A stretch of DNA of 64,000 bases from Lytechinus variegatus (taxonomy: Eukaryota > Echinodermata > Echinoidea > Temnopleuroida > Toxopneustidae): positions 14,328,778 through 14,392,777 of the forward strand of contig NC_054755.1 in the NCBI RefSeq assembly GCF_018143015.1, written 5' to 3'. The notes beneath the pieces were generated by a model that saw only the letters and a list, made by a program, of their open reading frames with translations, had not been told where the DNA came from and ran no database searches. Position numbers and translations under genes: made by a program. Positions 10,273 to 59,627 of this stretch are shown here, piece after piece (positions within the stretch are counted from its first letter, which is position 1; each line of letters opens with the position of its first letter).

Positions 10273-11153
10273 CCCTTATAAAAAAAATTGAATGGTATAC
10301 CATTGACTACCATTCATCATACACCATTGATATACCATTGATATACCATTGGAATACCATTCGCACAGCACCCACCATACACCAATGGTATACCATTCAA
10401 GCCTCAATGGTATACCATTCAAACTAATTTAAATAATTGGGACGTTACTATTACCATATTCATGAGCACCATTTACCATTCATATACCATTGATCAAACA
10501 CCATTCACCATTGATCTACCATATGGCCACTATAGACAGGTTTACCATTGACCACCATTCACCATTCAGCCACCATTCACTGGCCTACCATTTACCATTC
10601 AGCCACCATTCACTGGACACCATTGGCCTACCAATTGCCTTACACCATACACCATTCGCCTACCATTGACCATTGACCATACACCATTCATGTACCATTC
10701 ACCATCCGCGTATCATTCACCGTACACCATTCGCGTACCATTCAACATACACCATTCGTGTACCATTGAGCGCTCACCATTCAACTACCATTCGCCGTAA
10801 ACCGTTCACCATTGATTGACCATTCTACCATACACCGAACACCATTGACCTACCATTTACAGTACACCATTGGCCTACCATACACCATTGAACTAATATT
10901 CACCGTACACCGTAGGCTTACCATACACCATTGGCTTACCATACACTGACACCATTGACCTACCATTTACCATACAATACTGTCATACCATACACTATAC
11001 TATTAGTCAACCATTCAAATAACACCATTGGTCATACACTATAGACGACAAGTGTACATTCAATGGTAGACCAATGGTAGACAGTAGAACAAAGATGTGC
11101 AATGTATAGTAAGCCAATAAAGTACAGTGAATGGTAGACCAATGGTGAACAGC
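10273..11153. repeat. ACCATT word array 1
   Basis: Dozens of ACCATT words separated by variable spacers of about 4-20 bp, including the 14-bp palindrome AATGGTATACCATT. At the right end (11055-11153) the word switches to its complement AATGGT. The left end CCCTTATAAAAAA...GAATGGTATACC is the reverse complement of the right end of array 3 (43930-43974), so it looks like a true element terminus. There is no fixed period, so this is not an ordinary satellite. Confidence 0.85.
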
Positions 11154-19054: not shown

Positions 19055-19673
19055 CATACCATTCACCATATAATGGCATTCATTAGGCAAACACCACTAA
19101 GCCACTATGGCTTTACAATTATCCAACATGATTATATATACCACTAGGCACATACTACTAAGCACCATATTGGGTATATGGTATACCATTGATACCAATC
19201 ATACCATTATAGAGGCACATACTACTGAGACACCATTGGGTATATGGTATACCATGCAGTCATACCATTAGAGGCACATACTACTCAGCACCATTTGACA
19301 CCACTGAGACACCATTGGGTAATGGTATACCATTCACCATACTAATCATACCATTATACATGTTATAGAGGCACATACTACTGAGACACCATTGAATACC
19401 ACTGAGACACAATTTGGTATATGGTATACCATTCATCATACCAGTCATACCATTATAGAGACACATACTACTGAGACACCATTGAATACCACTGAGACAC
19501 CATTGTATACCACTGAGACACCATTGTATACCACTGAGACACCATTGGTGTATGGTATACCATTCATTATACCAGTCATACCATTAGAGGCATATACTAC
19601 TGAGACACTATTGAATACCACTGATACTCCATTGTATACCAGTGAGACACCATTGGTGTACGGTATCACTATG
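19055..19673. repeat. ACCATT word array 2
   Basis: Variable-spaced words such as ATACCATT, CACTGAGACACCATTG and the palindrome ATGGTATACCAT. From about 19370 a longer unit of roughly 110-170 bp appears (TACTACTGAGACAC..., GGTATACCATTCATTATACC) that is nearly identical to units in array 3 (43446-43960), in the same orientation. The right edge GGTATCACTATGAG is the inverse of the left edge of array 3 (TTCATAGTGTATACC). Confidence 0.9.
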
Positions 19674-43445: not shown

Positions 43446-43974
43446 TCATAGTGTATACCATTGATCATACCAATCATACCATTACAGGCACATACTACTG
43501 AGACACCATTGAATACCACTGAGACACCATTGTATACCACTGAGACACCATTGGTGTATGGTATACCATTCATTATACCAGTCATACCATTAGAGGCATA
43601 TACTACTGAGACACTATTGAATACCACTGAGACACCATTGTATACCACTGAGACACCATTGGTGTATGGTATACCATTGATCATACCAATCATACCATTA
43701 CAGGCACATACCACTGAGACACCATTGAATACCACTGAGACACCATTGGGTAATGGTATACCATTCGTCATACCAATCATATCATTAGTCACATACCGCT
43801 GAGACACCATTGGGTATATGGTATACCATTTACCATTAAATAAACTACCAATTACCATTAAGAACTTACCATTGAAACACCACTTAAATACCATTCGCGT
43901 ACCATTTACCATTCACATCACCATTCAACTACCATTCGGCACCATTCAAATACCATTGGCGATTTTTATAAGGG
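43446..43974. repeat. ACCATT word array 3
   Basis: Longer units (ACTGAGACACCATTGAATAC, GGTATACCATTCATTATACC) repeat with a period of roughly 160 bp, then break down into simple ACCATT words from 43830. The right end reads ACCATTGGCGATTTTTATAA then GGG, the inverse of the left end of array 1. The open frames on both strands (up to 167 codons) are by-products of the repeat. Confidence 0.9.
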
Positions 43975-45135
43975 TGGCAAGCCGTTTGTACCATAAAGGC
44001 GATAAACCGAGTTTATCGCCGATAAACTCGGTTTTTCGGTCGATAAACAGAGTTTATAAACTTAGTTTATCGATAAACAGAGTTTATCGACCGAAAAACT
44101 AAGTTTTTCACCGATAAACTCAGTTTTTCGGCGATAAACTCAGTTTATCAAGTGATAAACTGAGTTTATCGCGAGAAACTCTGTTTATCGTCGAAAAACT
44201 AAGTTTATCGCCGATAAACAGAGTTTTTCTCGATAAACTAAGTTTATCAAGTGATAAATTGAGTTTCTCGAGATAAACTCTGTTTATCGGCGATAAACCG
44301 AGTTTTTCAGCGATAAACAGAGTTATTTCGATAAACTATGTTTATCACTCGATAAACTTAGTTTATCGCCGAAAAACTAAGTTTATCGCCGATAAACTTA
44401 GTTTTTCGCTCGATAAACTAGGTTTTTCGAATTGAAAAACTTACTTTATCGAAATTGAAAAACCTAGTTCATCACTTGAAAAACCTAGTTTGTCGCCGAT
44501 AAACTAAGTTTTTCAAATCTGATAAACTAATTTTTTCGAATCTGATACACTGAGTTTATCGAAGAATGCCATTTGTCCCATAAAGGCGATAAACTAGGTT
44601 TTTCAAGTGATAAACTGAGTTTATCGAAGAACGCCATTTGTCCCATAAAGGCGATAAACTAGGTTTTTCATGTGATAAACTAGGTTTTTCATTTTCGATA
44701 AACTAGGTTTTTCGATTTTGATAAACTAGGTTTTTCGATTCTATAAACTAGGTTTTTCAAAATTGAAAAACTTAGTTTATCGAATAACTCTGTTTATCAA
44801 GTGAAAAACTTAGTTTATCGCGAAAAACTCTGTTTATCGGCCATGTAGTGGGCGATAAACATAGTTTTTCGCCGATAAACAGAGTTTATCTCGATAAACT
44901 CTGTTTATCACTTGATAAACTTAGTTTATCGAGAAAAACTCTGTTTATCGGCGATAAACTAAGTTTTTCGAAGATAAACAGACTTTCTCGCGATAAACTC
45001 AGTTTATCACTTGATAAACTGAGTTTATCGCCGAAAAACTGAGTTTATCGGTGAAAAACTTTATTTTTCGGTCGATAAACAGAGTTTATCGGCGATAAAC
45101 TCGGTTTATCGCCTTTATGGTACAAACGGCTTGCC
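43975..45135. mobile_element. Foldback element made of GATAAAC/GTTTATC palindromes
   Basis: A 1161-bp element whose ends are exact inverses over at least 50 bp: TGGCAAGCCGTTTGTACCAT, then AAAGGCGATAAAC, and the mirror at 45070-45135. Between them are several dozen short palindromes built from GATAAAC or GAAAAAC, a 2-4 base centre, and GTTTATC or GTTTTTC, spaced by 2-6 bases. Two internal partial copies of the terminal block (CCATTTGTCCCATAAAGGCG at 44570 and 44632) show internal duplication. It lies at the end of ACCATT array 3, inside that element's ATAAGGG/CATATGCG junction. There is no coding sequence. Confidence 0.92.
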
Positions 45136-45172
45136 ATATGCGTAGCTACTGTTTAACTCGAGCCTAGTCTGT

Positions 45173-45407: not shown

Positions 45408-46236
45408 CCCTGATAGCAGACATGGTCATAATCACGTGATAATTACGTCGTATTCTCGGCATACTGGTCGTAGACAATAAATATGACGTCTTTATGACGT
45501 AATTGCGACCATTTTTAACGCCGAGTTTATGTTGCATTTTTATTTGACCAGATTATGACGTGATTATGACGTCATTAATTCACCAGTCAATGACGAGTAA
45601 ATTTAAGATTTTGCATGACCAGAATATGATGTGATTATGACGTCATTTATTGACAAATCAACGACGAGTCTATCCACAATTTTACATGACCAGATTTTGA
45701 CGTGATTATGACGTCATTAATTGACCATTCAATGACAAGTAAAGTTAACAGTTTTGCATGACCAGAATATGACCTAAATATGACGTCATATATTGACAAA
45801 TCAAAGACGAATATATTACAATTTTATATGACCAGATAATGATGTGATTATGACGTAATTAATCAACCAGTCACGAGTAAATTTACTATTTTGCATGACC
45901 AAAATATACAACGTGATTATAATAATAATATGCAACATTTATATAGCGCTTAATACAAATGTTTCTAAGCGCTGCATACCATTACCCCGGCTTTAGCACG
46001 GCTACCCTGATCGGGCGCATCGAGCATTCCAAGGAATTTCTTCCTACCGGGTACCCATTTACTACACCTGGGTCGAGAGTGGCAATTGTAGATAAACGCC
46101 TTGCCAAAGGACGTGCTGTGGTGGGATTTGAACCCCGGTCCTTGTGGTTCACAGTCCGTAGACTTATCCACTAAGCCACAACACCTTCACGACGAGTGCA
46201 TTTACAATTTTATATGACCTCATTATGAAAACATTT
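45408..46236. mobile_element. TGACGTCA tandem array, left arm with CCCTGATAGCA end
   Basis: It starts at CCCTGATAGCA and continues into about six copies of a unit of roughly 80 bp with ATGACCAGAATATGACGTGA, TTATGACGTCATTAATTGAC and CAATGACGAGTAAATTTAC. Full TGACGTCA (CRE-type) palindromes occur in several units. A SINE (45918-46190) is inserted in the last unit. The array at 54800-55332 is related but runs in reverse. Confidence 0.85.
45918..46190 (-). mobile_element. tRNA-derived SINE, - strand
   Basis: Read on the - strand: A box TGGCTTAGTGG, B box GGGTTCAAATCCC-like (GGTTCAAATCCCACC), then a body with ACCCAGGTGTAGTAAATGGG and TACCCGGTAGGAAG, an AAGCGCT...AGCGC hairpin, and a short (ATT)n tail at 45918-45932. 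The head is well preserved, so the copy is younger than the one at 14003. It is not a tRNA gene: no acceptor-stem closure is visible. Confidence 0.85.
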
Positions 46237-47594: not shown

Positions 47595-48721
47595 GGCGCT
47601 AATGCAGTTTCGCACCGGCCGATTACCAGCACACCTAATCACCAATACTTGTTACCAAATGTCATGACAAGTCTCTCAGTCACATTTCGATGTCAATACA
47701 TCCACCACTTTTCAAAATATTGTGATCGGGAATGGCTGTATTTCATCTTCGATCTCAACGTCGTTGATCGACATCGCTTCGCGGATCGCTTGGATTCACC
47801 GTGCACCGTAATGTTAATATGAACTGAAGTTAGCAACCAAATCATGCGAGAATGTGGCGAACAAACTGCCAGCATGCCGCATGCGAATCTATGCTCGCAT
47901 GATTTGGTTGCTAACTTCAGTTCATATCAACATTACATTGCACGGTGAATCCAAGTGATCTGCGAAGCGATGTCTACGCCGTGTCGCTACGCGGATCGCT
48001 TGGATTCACCGTGCGCCGTAATGTTGATATGAACGGAAGTTAGCAACCAAATCATGCGAACATAGATTCGCATGCGGCATGCTGTCAGTTTGTTCGCCAC
48101 ATTGTCGCATGATTTGGTTGCTAACTTCAGTTCATATCAACATTACGGTGCACTGTGAATCCAAGAGATATGAACGGAAGTTAGCAACCAAATCATGCGA
48201 ACATAGATTCGCATGCGGCATGCTGGCAGTTTGTTCGCCACATTCTCGCATGATTTGGTTGCTAACTTCAGTTCATATCAACATTACGGTGCACGGTGAA
48301 TCCAAGCGATCTGCGAAGCGATGTCTACGCCGTGTTGCTTCGCGGATCGCTTGGATTCACCGTGCACCGTAATGTTGATATGAACGGAAGTTAGCAACCA
48401 AATCATGCGAACATAGATTCGCATGCGGCATGCTGGCAGTTTGTTCGCCACATTCTCGCATGATTTGGTTGCTAACTTCAGTTCATATCAACATTACGGT
48501 ACACGGTGAATCCAAGCGATCTGTGAAGCGATGTCTACGCCGTGTCGATCAACGACGTTGAGATCGAAGCCGAAATACAGCCATTCCCGATCAAGATATT
48601 TTGAAAAGTGGTGGATATATTGACATCGAAATGTGACTGAGAGACTTGTCATGACATTTGGGAACAAATATTGGTGATGAGGTATGCTGGTAACCGGCTG
48701 GTGCGAAACTGCATTAGCGCC
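47595..48721. mobile_element. hAT-like foldback element with 8-bp target duplication and multiplied hairpins
   Basis: A 1127-bp element flanked by a perfect AAGTTTAA on both sides (47587-47594, 48722-48729). The terminal inverted repeats are GGCGCTAATGCAGTTTCGCA then CCGGC..., and their mirror, more than 150 bp long including CATTTCGATGTCAATA / ATTGACATCGAAATG. The interior holds three to four large palindromes of about 160-175 bp: arms GGATTCACCGTGCACCGTAA ... GTTAGCAACCAAATCATGCG around a GCATGCGGCATGC centre, separated by GATCTGCGAAGCGATGTCTA spacers. The 8-bp duplication and GC-rich ends fit hAT-type MITEs. There is no transposase. Confidence 0.93.
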
Positions 48722-54799: not shown

Positions 54800-55332
54800 A
54801 TTTCATATGTAAATCATTATCACGTCAAAATAAGTCAAAATTCCGTCATTATGACATCGTAGTCGACTATTAAAGACCTTAAAATCATGTCCAGATGACG
54901 TCTAATACTGGTCATAAATATGTTATAAAGTGACTATTAATTACGTCATAATCACGACATAAAAATGTCATAAGTGACCATTAATGACATAATAATCACG
55001 TCAATATACGACGTCATTCTGACGTATAATACTGGTAATGAATACGTTATAAAGACGTCATAAAGACGTTGTAAGTAACCATTAATGACGTAATAATCAA
55101 GTCATAAAGACGTGTAATACTGGTCAGGAATATGGCATAAAAACGTCATAAAGACGTCGTATTCGACTTATTAAGACGTCATAATCACGTCATTTTACGA
55201 CGTTGATATGACGACGTGCGTTGGTGCAAATTCTTGACTTTAAGACGTCTTTTTACGACGTCAAAACGACGTGATACTCGTCGTAAAATAACGTCAATAT
55301 GACGTCTTTTTACCCAGTTTTTGCTATCAGGG
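54800..55332. mobile_element. TGACGTCA array, right arm with TGCTATCAGGG end
   Basis: A dense run of GACGTCAT, ACGTCATAATCACGTCA and AAAGACGTCATAAAGACGT words ends in TGCTATCAGGG (55322-55332), the exact inverse of the start of the array at 45408. Its reverse complement contains TGACGTGATTATTACGTCAT, matching TGACGTGATTATGACGTCAT of the left array. So the two arrays are in inverted orientation. Confidence 0.85.
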
Positions 55333-57947: not shown

Positions 57948-58752
57948 TCATATGTTTTCTTTGATGTATGCGACGATTTCCTTGCGCATTTTTTCACCGA
58001 TTGTGAAATTAATATTGGCGCCACTCAGCCACAGTATACCATGAAATGCTTCTTCATAATGGGACCATTTGACAGACACACCAGCCTCATGCAGGCGAGT
58101 CTTGTAAAAGATACCGTCATCTCGAAGCGAGTCAAAACCACAGGTGATGATGAAAGCAGGGGGAAGTCCCGTAAGATCGCTCCTCATCAACGGCGCTATT
58201 CGAGGATCAAGTAGGATCGGTGATATACGCTTAAAAAGGGCTGCATTGCCTGTTTCAGGATCATTCCTCGTCTTGTAATACCTTGGATCACGGAATTCCG
58301 CTGGGATCTTGTTGTGATCGAGGTACTTGTATTCAACTGTTGTTTTCTTGAAATCAGAAGATATATGGTTGTTGTTGGCTACATGTTTCATGAATTCTGG
58401 GTCGATCTTACCTACTGTAACTAAACTCGCGAGAGTGACGCCAAAATGTAACGGAATAACTCCTGATGAGCCGAAATCAGCCCTATATTTCTGATATGAT
58501 GGGGTGTTCAGATCAATCTTCTGTGTTGAGGGATAGATAAGGACTTGAAGCTTAAGGTCTGGTAGGGAAGGATCATCGTGGATACCAATGGATACAGACG
58601 CAGAGAGCTGACCACCAGCACTGTCACCACCGATGGCAATGCGACGCTCGTCGACGCCAAACTCCTTCTCAGCATGTTGTATGAAATAACGTGTGGCTGT
58701 TAAGCAGTCTTCATAACCTGATGGGAATGGATGATCTGGAGCAAGACGATAA
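57948..58752 (-). CDS. AADAC: Arylacetamide deacetylase-like hydrolase, last exon
   Basis: Terminal exon of a hormone-sensitive-lipase-family carboxylesterase. Family members are ER-membrane enzymes that deacetylate lipid and drug esters. It starts after an acceptor (ctctgcacag) and encodes 267 residues to TGA (57948-57950). Numbering from its first Tyr: YRLAPDHPFP at 1-10; GGDSAGG at 41-47 with nucleophile Ser44; acid Asp207 in CGFDSLRDDG; His237 in EEAFHGI. The Asp-His spacing of 30 equals that in human AADAC as I recall it. Residues 80-160 form the lid-side insertion. The C-terminus (VAYIKENI) aligns with the family end, so the exon looks complete. The closest paralogue (AADAC, AADACL or NCEH1) cannot be fixed by eye. 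Confidence 0.93.
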
Positions 58753-58827
58753 CTGTGCAGAGGCAGAAAACAAAAGAAATCATTGAAAGTAAGACTTGGA
58801 AAGCACAAAATACACTGCATGCAGTTA

Positions 58828-59205
58828 TCACCCAGGGAGGGGTCTATTTGACGATCACCCAGGGGGGTCTATTTGACGATCACCCAGGGGGGGTCTATTT
58901 GACGATCACCCAGGGGAGGGGTCTATTTGACGATCACCCAGGGGGGGTCTATTTGACGATCACCCAGGGGAGGGGTCTATTTGACGATCACCCAGGGGGG
59001 TCTATTTGACGATCACCCAGGGGAGGGGTCTATTTGACGATCACCCAGGGGAGGGGTCTATTTGACGATCACCCAGGGGGGTCTATTTGACGATCACCCA
59101 GGGGAGGGGTCTATTTGACGATCACCCAGGGGAGGGGTCTATTTGACGATCACCCAGGGGAGGGGTCTATTTGACGATCACCCAGGGGAGGGGTCTATTT
59201 GACAA
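58828..59205. repeat. GC-rich minisatellite in the AADAC-like intron
   Basis: About 15 copies of a 24-28-bp unit, CACCCAGGGGAGGGGTCTAT plus TTGACGAT. The unit is variable because GGGGAGGGG alternates with GGGGGG or GGGGGGG. Each unit brings one or two G-runs on the + strand (C-runs on the transcribed pre-mRNA). It starts about 75 bases upstream of the last exon's acceptor in transcript terms. Confidence 0.95.
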
Positions 59206-59627
59206 TCGACAGCATACATTAGATAGAAAAGCGGAAAAGGAAGTGTTTAGGCGCGGAACGCGAAAAGAGAGTAAAAAAACCCGAAAAATAGATGAAAACC
59301 CCTATGATGATGCCCTAAAACGCAAATAAAGTAGGGCTATGTTTTTAGCATCGACTGCGGTACATACAGTTAAACAGGTCTATTCCTCTCAACTTTGGTG
59401 CATTATCTGAACTAGAGTAGAAAGCATCATAAAACTGTGAGATATCCTGAGATAAAAGCAGAGCTAGATAAGATTACCAATTGGACCCCATTCGCTTTCA
59501 TATTCATGAATTTTTTGAATATCTTGGTTTAGGGTATAAATTGATGAAACCCCTGTTAATATATCCCTGTATAAATATATAGGGTTGTATGCTACCTTTA
59601 TATTGTAATACAAAAGTGAAAACGTAC

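Follow-up and report, generated by a model that had tools for sequence, protein, structure and literature searches.

A probable foldback variant of IS3EU-type transposons from Lytechinus variegatus whose arms carry an ordered array of dimer-like palindromic sites

Introduction

Why are the arms of foldback transposons filled with short repeats? The role of these repeats is an open question, and in the available text on the Drosophila element Galileo the function of its arms, which exceed 1 kb, is called uncertain by the authors themselves (PMC3688188). The question is raised anew by a 1.16-kb foldback DNA transposon at positions 43975-45138 of the window, i.e., of the whole 64-kb stretch of Lytechinus variegatus DNA that was analysed here. 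The element is built of the 17-bp palindrome GAWAAAC-NNN-GTTTWTC. An earlier note, made from the sequence letters, had set it apart from both a plain satellite and a plain MITE, a distinction that is upheld here, and had proposed that selection or a copying process acts on a hairpin-forming word.

A foldback element built of palindromic units

The window element has long inverted arms that consist largely of short repeats, and it is a genuine element rather than an artefact; its description as a foldback is upheld, and genomic copies with the same ends exist. With mismatches allowed, it contains 53 units (38 exact, 10 with one mismatch, and 5 with more), two of which, at 44561 and 44626, are really relic ends. 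The exact 17-mer, present 38 times, was absent across 300 shuffles. Of the 54 GAWAAAC words in the 64-kb window, 46 lie inside the element, as do 43 of the 58 GTTTWTC words, while Markov shuffles of the element (n = 500) hold 1.25 words on average and six at most. The high density of the words noticed earlier is thus confirmed; the statement that almost every base belongs to a palindrome was slightly strong, given a unit coverage of 76%.

The two ends of the window copy are identical over 55 nt, beyond the 30 bp that terminal inverted repeats of IS3EU exceed. The outer 81 nt of the arms are 91% complementary and the deeper arms of 238 nt 93%. The true element ends are TA, two bases beyond the limits first assigned, and in the window copy the left TA has been lost together with the left target duplication (Table 1).

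Table 1. Parts of the foldback element, in window positions
Feature	Position	Strand	Basis or remark
Whole foldback element, window copy, left TA lost	43975..45138	.	Ends and genome copies
Left terminal 26-mer TGGCAAGCCGTTTGTACCATAAAGGC	43975..44000	+	Same sequence at both ends
Left portion of the GAWAAAC-NNN-GTTTWTC array	44001..44560	.	Unit list
Left inner arm, 238 nt	44071..44308	+	93% complementary to 44854-45091
Relic internal end (..GCCATTTGTCCCATAAAGGC), like the older-subfamily tip (L079, L080)	44561..44587	+	
Two units separating both relic ends	44588..44625	.	Unit list
Second relic internal end	44626..44652	+	
Right portion of the unit array	44653..45110	.	Unit list
15-nt spacer in the right array, recurring in right arms of other copies	44839-44853		
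Right inner arm, 238 nt	44854..45091	-	Complementary to left inner arm
Right terminal sequence, reverse complement of the left end, with outer TA at 45137-45138	45111..45138	-	
TGCGTA, surviving right target duplication, without left partner	45139..45144	+	Position from comparison with other copies

Several other features of the window were recorded. Arrays of ACCATT words with irregular spacing lie at 10291-10973, 19146-19655, and 43453-43968, the last of which adjoins the left end of the element, where the target duplication was lost. Arrays rich in TGACGTCA-like words are found at 45545-45920 and 54913-55193, and another foldback, with ends GGCGCTAATGCAG and the 8-bp repeat AAGTTTAA on both flanks, occupies 47595-48721. 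On the minus strand, an open frame at 57951-58868 encodes an alpha/beta hydrolase domain (Abhydrolase_3, E 2.4e-40), beside which lies a 28-bp tandem repeat (58827-59207). A tRNA search of the window found none.

Genomic copies and target duplications

In the 869.6-Mb, 33-contig assembly, the exact end 20-mer occurs 38 times (17 forward, 21 reverse) against 0 for its reversed control; a shifted end 20-mer, at up to three mismatches, yields 185 matches, 97 plus 88, compared with 17 for the control. In the stretches retrieved, the GAWAAAC family is represented by at least 19 two-ended copies: both 20-mer ends are exact in 16, one of the ends has a mismatch in two, and each end has one in L074. 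The single-ended members L031 and L032 make at least two more. Copies elsewhere with the same ends, whose absence would have spoken against the earlier note, do exist.

The target duplication, which that note had proposed to look for, is an exact 6-bp repeat outside TA..TA in 15 of the 19 two-ended copies (12 of the 16 with exact ends, both one-mismatch copies, and L074), the length known from IS3EU; L009, L016, L017, and the window copy have no exact 6-bp duplication. A single insertion, duplicated in inverted orientation, accounts for both L021 and L022, so that the 15 copies with target duplications represent 14 events. Leaving out L074, position 3 of the duplication is C in 13 of 13 events and position 4 is G in 9 of 13. 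The 16 exact-end copies have the termini TATGGC..GCCATA, which conform to the IS3EU form TAYGG..CCRTA, except for L009, with a mutated end, and the window copy, with its left end lost. In L009, TT stands for TA at the right end and the 12-bp repeat CGCAGGTGCCGG, instead of 6 bp, lies on both flanks. The GAWAAAC foldback family is mobile and generates 6-bp target duplications.

Some copies form subfamilies. The unique interior of L012, L023, and L027, about 0.8-0.9 kb long, is common to the three at 97-99.5% identity, and a portion of it matches other genomic repeats at 73-77%; L011 and L014 have another common inner part of about 0.6 kb at 92%; neither inner part contains a long open frame. 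Nested in L027 (L027:764-2101) is an unrelated, word-built foldback of 1338 bp. Its ends are CCCAGGACCAAAATCCA, its words are of the CCARTTGG type and frequently stand about 10 bp from one another, and TA flanks the insertion on both sides.

Architecture and evolution of the unit array

The 18 two-ended copies measured contain 25 to 64 units each. Among their 777 unit-start spacings of up to 26 bp, 580 amount to 19-21 bp (mean 20.4), and in 16 copies the gap between facing words is exactly 3 bp in 596 of 602 cases, with linkers of 0-13. Spacing, previously called uneven, is hence uneven in the linkers, but fixed at the centre and rather regular from one unit start to the next.

When 32 arms were written out and compared by eye on their variable letters, most followed a common order of about 13 units, interrupted by deletions and insertions, beyond which each arm continues in its own way. 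Since this order is common to copies and arms, the array has been inherited, and recent amplification of one unit, i.e., the finding of a single tandem unit amplified once that the earlier note had named as fatal to its view, is ruled out. The majority arm is a tiling of 14 contiguous units, among which the 12 word positions show 0 of 1092 pairwise differences, compared with 83 of 182 at the W positions and 135 of 273 in the centre. Changes private to single arms, by contrast, are distributed more uniformly, affecting 62 of 4912 word cells, 21 of 819 W cells, 21 of 1239 centre cells, and 23 of 1228 linker cells; in a set of arms that includes the duplicated insertions L016/L017 and L021/L022, they slightly spare the words (62/4912 versus 65/3286 in other cells), a modest, nominally significant effect (p 0.013). 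The simplest reading of these sequence patterns is that purifying selection would act on the words in the moving lineage, with near-neutral decay after insertion.

Every unit is palindromic and the arms are able to fold back on each other, so that hairpins or cruciforms might themselves be selected, for replication or as precursors of small RNAs. We regard this as highly improbable: in exact units, the two W positions match in 255 of 596 cases, below the 331.6 expected were they independent, and no Rfam family was found in the window at the gathering threshold. The absent covariation disfavours selection on the hairpin-forming word as formerly proposed. Invariant words, variable centres and W positions, the fixed 3-bp centre, and the lack of covariation between the two W letters together fit a site for a dimeric protein rather than a hairpin or a single recent tandem amplification, and a dimer with two half-sites, each tolerating A or T, would fit better than a hairpin.

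The array might also have arisen with no binding role at all, from palindromic words multiplied by template switching or unequal exchange within the foldback, in which case the conservation would reflect homogenised copying. Duplication did occur in the array, as is evident from higher-order repeats of about 99 bp within the arms and from the two relic ends 65 bp apart, and the same genome has other arrays of palindromic words. Homogenisation would, however, need to halt at the edges of the 7-bp words while sparing diverse 3-bp centres, W positions, and linkers; moreover, unit order is inherited, not newly made, and centre length is fixed, but linker length is not. This origin is considered unlikely.

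A relic with a probable transposase exon

A single-ended copy at C3:51176700-51178300 carries, immediately interior to its end and array, an open exon of 175 aa; beyond the exon follows a shortened inverted array, and the unit order is that of the family. The exon matches the NCBIfam model transpos_IS481 (E 2.4e-6, 27.3 bits, below the cut-off of 224) and Pfam rva_4 (E 6.5e-4, 19.9 bits, below the cut-off of 26), and matches to helix-turn-helix (HTH) models are weak. A THAP domain match was not reported for this one exon, the models matched being those for integrase cores and HTH. GTAAGG directly after the exon is a likely splice donor, but nothing recognisable as a further catalytic part follows, and most of the catalytic domain is missing. 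The autonomous partner with the same ends that the earlier note proposed to look for may be represented by this relic and its transposase exon; no intact transposase was found.

A search of 5.8 billion proteins identified six homologues of the exon. The top two have 64% identity, and in four of the six the sequence stops at the same place. The assembly holds one copy of the exon plus five matches at 40-47% identity. The rva_4 model matched 35 times in the assembly; 14 control genomes yielded no match. Neither exact units nor the end pair were detected around rva_4 matches in 39 overlapping loci, and a looser test of five 10-kb rva_4 loci returned no repeated 7-bp inverted pair and no end pairs better than 5-6 mismatches in 16, the level expected by chance; since the majority of loci extend no more than 1.5 kb on either side, the ends could lie beyond them. 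An array of inverted short words of the TTCCGAAGGTTCGTTATTCC type was seen near one rva_4 transposase match (L073:1-577). The predicted model of the exon consists of helical bundles at moderate confidence (pLDDT 64.5). A PDB sequence search with the exon returned nothing, and a PDB fold search with the model returned nothing significant, the best match being the Pax-6 paired domain (E 0.34). Through one truncated relic with the same end and arrays, the family thus appears linked, with support that is real but thin, to an IS481/IS3-type transposase.

Related elements with other palindromes

Two other element types, whose tip is almost that of the window family and which likewise have a 6-bp duplication, carry different palindromes, TTCTTGATATCAAGAA and ATTATTTATAAATAAT, in sparser and more degenerate arrays. 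They come from eight stretches chosen by tip type and pairing among about 100 of the 185 relaxed end matches, which are not a frequency sample. L077 has the tip TATGGCAAGCCGTTTTAACA, the duplication CGCGCG, and 18 units scored for TTCTTGATATCAAGAA, three of them exact, with 20 or 21 bp in 8 of its first 11 steps; L078 agrees with it in tip and word and has six units (two exact), but the 6-mers on its two sides do not match each other. L075 and L076 carry the tip TATGGGGCGCCGTTTGTACC, the duplication CTAATC, and the word ATTATTTATAAATAAT, with nine units in L075 (three exact); having the same flanks, they represent one insertion duplicated with its surroundings. In the ATTATTTATAAATAAT array, three successive steps measure 31, 32, and 31 bp. 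Units cover 16-37% of the L075-L078 types versus 76% of the window copy, and some of these units are due to chance, as units with up to 4-5 mismatches in 16 were accepted. One-sided unit changes outnumber compensated ones—31 versus 1 in L077, 7 versus 0 in L078, and 11 versus 2 in L075—which again speaks against selected hairpins. The forkhead-factor site, offered in the earlier note as a suggestion, gains no support, the conserved object being a 17-bp palindrome with a fixed centre, which is replaced by other palindromes in elements whose tip is almost the same.

An older subfamily is recognised by the tip TATGGCAMGCCATTTGTCCC of L079 and L080. L080 contains an old GAWAAAC array, and L079 one unit-like stretch beside the tip, with no exact unit. 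As both relic ends of the window element resemble this tip, its array probably took in ends of the older subfamily. The tip TATGGCACGCCATTTGTCCC has at least five matches within 165 kb (G000:C4, about 0.999-1.164 Mb), L079 among them. Behind the L079 tip lie open frames of 121-176 aa; Pfam searches with three of them gave no match.

These relatives raise the possibility, which we hold only tentatively, of an IS3EU-type foldback lineage with cutting tip and address as separate modules. The tip (TATGG...GCCGTTT) would be near-constant, while the arms would carry family-specific palindromes near whole helical turns, at about 20-21 bp for two words and about 31 bp for the third. Divergence between families would come from a joint exchange of the entire array and of the DNA-binding specificity of the transposase, yielding an address code against cross-mobilisation of co-resident families. 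The low unit coverage, the permissive scoring, and the AT-richness of the third word, ATTATTTATAAATAAT, count against this view of the relatives.

A possible docking function of the array

Considering the combined evidence, we moderately favour the view that the window element is a non-autonomous cut-and-paste transposon of the IS3EU type, in whose arms a series of palindromes, passed on in a set order, would be recognised by a dimeric DNA-binding protein, most likely the family's own transposase. The transposase may bind the units through its N-terminal helix-turn-helix part, and cleavage would fall at the conserved TATGGC tip; the sites, spaced by about two helical turns, could load many transposase subunits, and the loaded array may help to pair both element ends. 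Taken by itself, the sequence reveals only a fixed dimer-like site, and a host transcription factor or chromatin protein exploited by the element would explain the units equally; the other words beside nearly the same tip would then fit different host proteins. The long arrays, however, adjoin the cutting ends, as do transposase sites in Galileo according to the available text of PMC3688188, and we judge a host protein in place of the element's own transposase to be quite improbable. Family-specific docking sites for the transposase are thus the best reading of the palindromes.

The window family offers a clean test of what repeats inside foldback arms do, as its dozens of ordered units have one invariant dimer-like core in common and a few relatives combine an almost unchanged tip with other words. 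Should the transposase indeed recognise the words, an exchange of arrays between families would reveal which of the two, tip or array, directs mobilisation.

Comparison with known systems

The sea urchin TU elements, reportedly described by Liebermann in 1983, are said to be foldback elements with short arm repeats; compared by this description only, they resemble the window family in both respects and differ in their 15-bp repeats and 8-bp duplications. In Ac/Ds and Spm, many short transposase-binding motifs are present near both ends. These elements belong to other superfamilies, and their motifs are scattered, in contrast to the continuous, ordered palindrome array described here.

Mutator-type foldbacks and Tetris have long arms with internal repeats and non-autonomous copies, as found here. 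A Mutator-type foldback is rejected because the duplications are 6 bp long; for Tetris, the available text of PMC4079207 gives duplications of 8-10 bp and repeats of about 220 bp, compared with 6 bp and 17-bp palindromes in the window family. A precedent is provided by Galileo, a foldback-like element of the P superfamily in Drosophila, whose transposase binds, through its THAP domain, sites in the internal repeats of the long arms, as stated in the available parts of PMC3688188. According to the same parts, Galileo has a different transposase superfamily and three sites in one Galileo-G arm, versus dozens of contiguous palindromes here (PMC3688188).

The closest agreement is with IS3EU, for which the consulted portions of two sources give the termini TAYGG..CCRTA with a 6-bp target duplication (PMC12730594) and TA..TA ends with a duplication of usually 6 bp (PMC10045372). 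IS3EU (with GingerRoot) and the window family have in common 6-bp duplications, TAYGG..CCRTA ends, and inverted repeats longer than 30 bp. IS3EU elements also encode a DDE transposase related to IS3/IS481, to which the relic exon, with its matches below the curated cut-offs, may correspond. As described in those portions of PMC12730594 and PMC10045372, however, IS3EU has neither palindrome arrays in its arms nor a foldback structure, whereas the window family has both. In the open-access literature, a link between IS3EU and foldbacks led to one oyster satellite survey, whose available text describes no such element. The window family appears to be an IS3EU-type transposon lineage in a new, foldback form, with an array of dimer-like sites in its arms and with relatives that seem to retain the tip while the palindrome differs.
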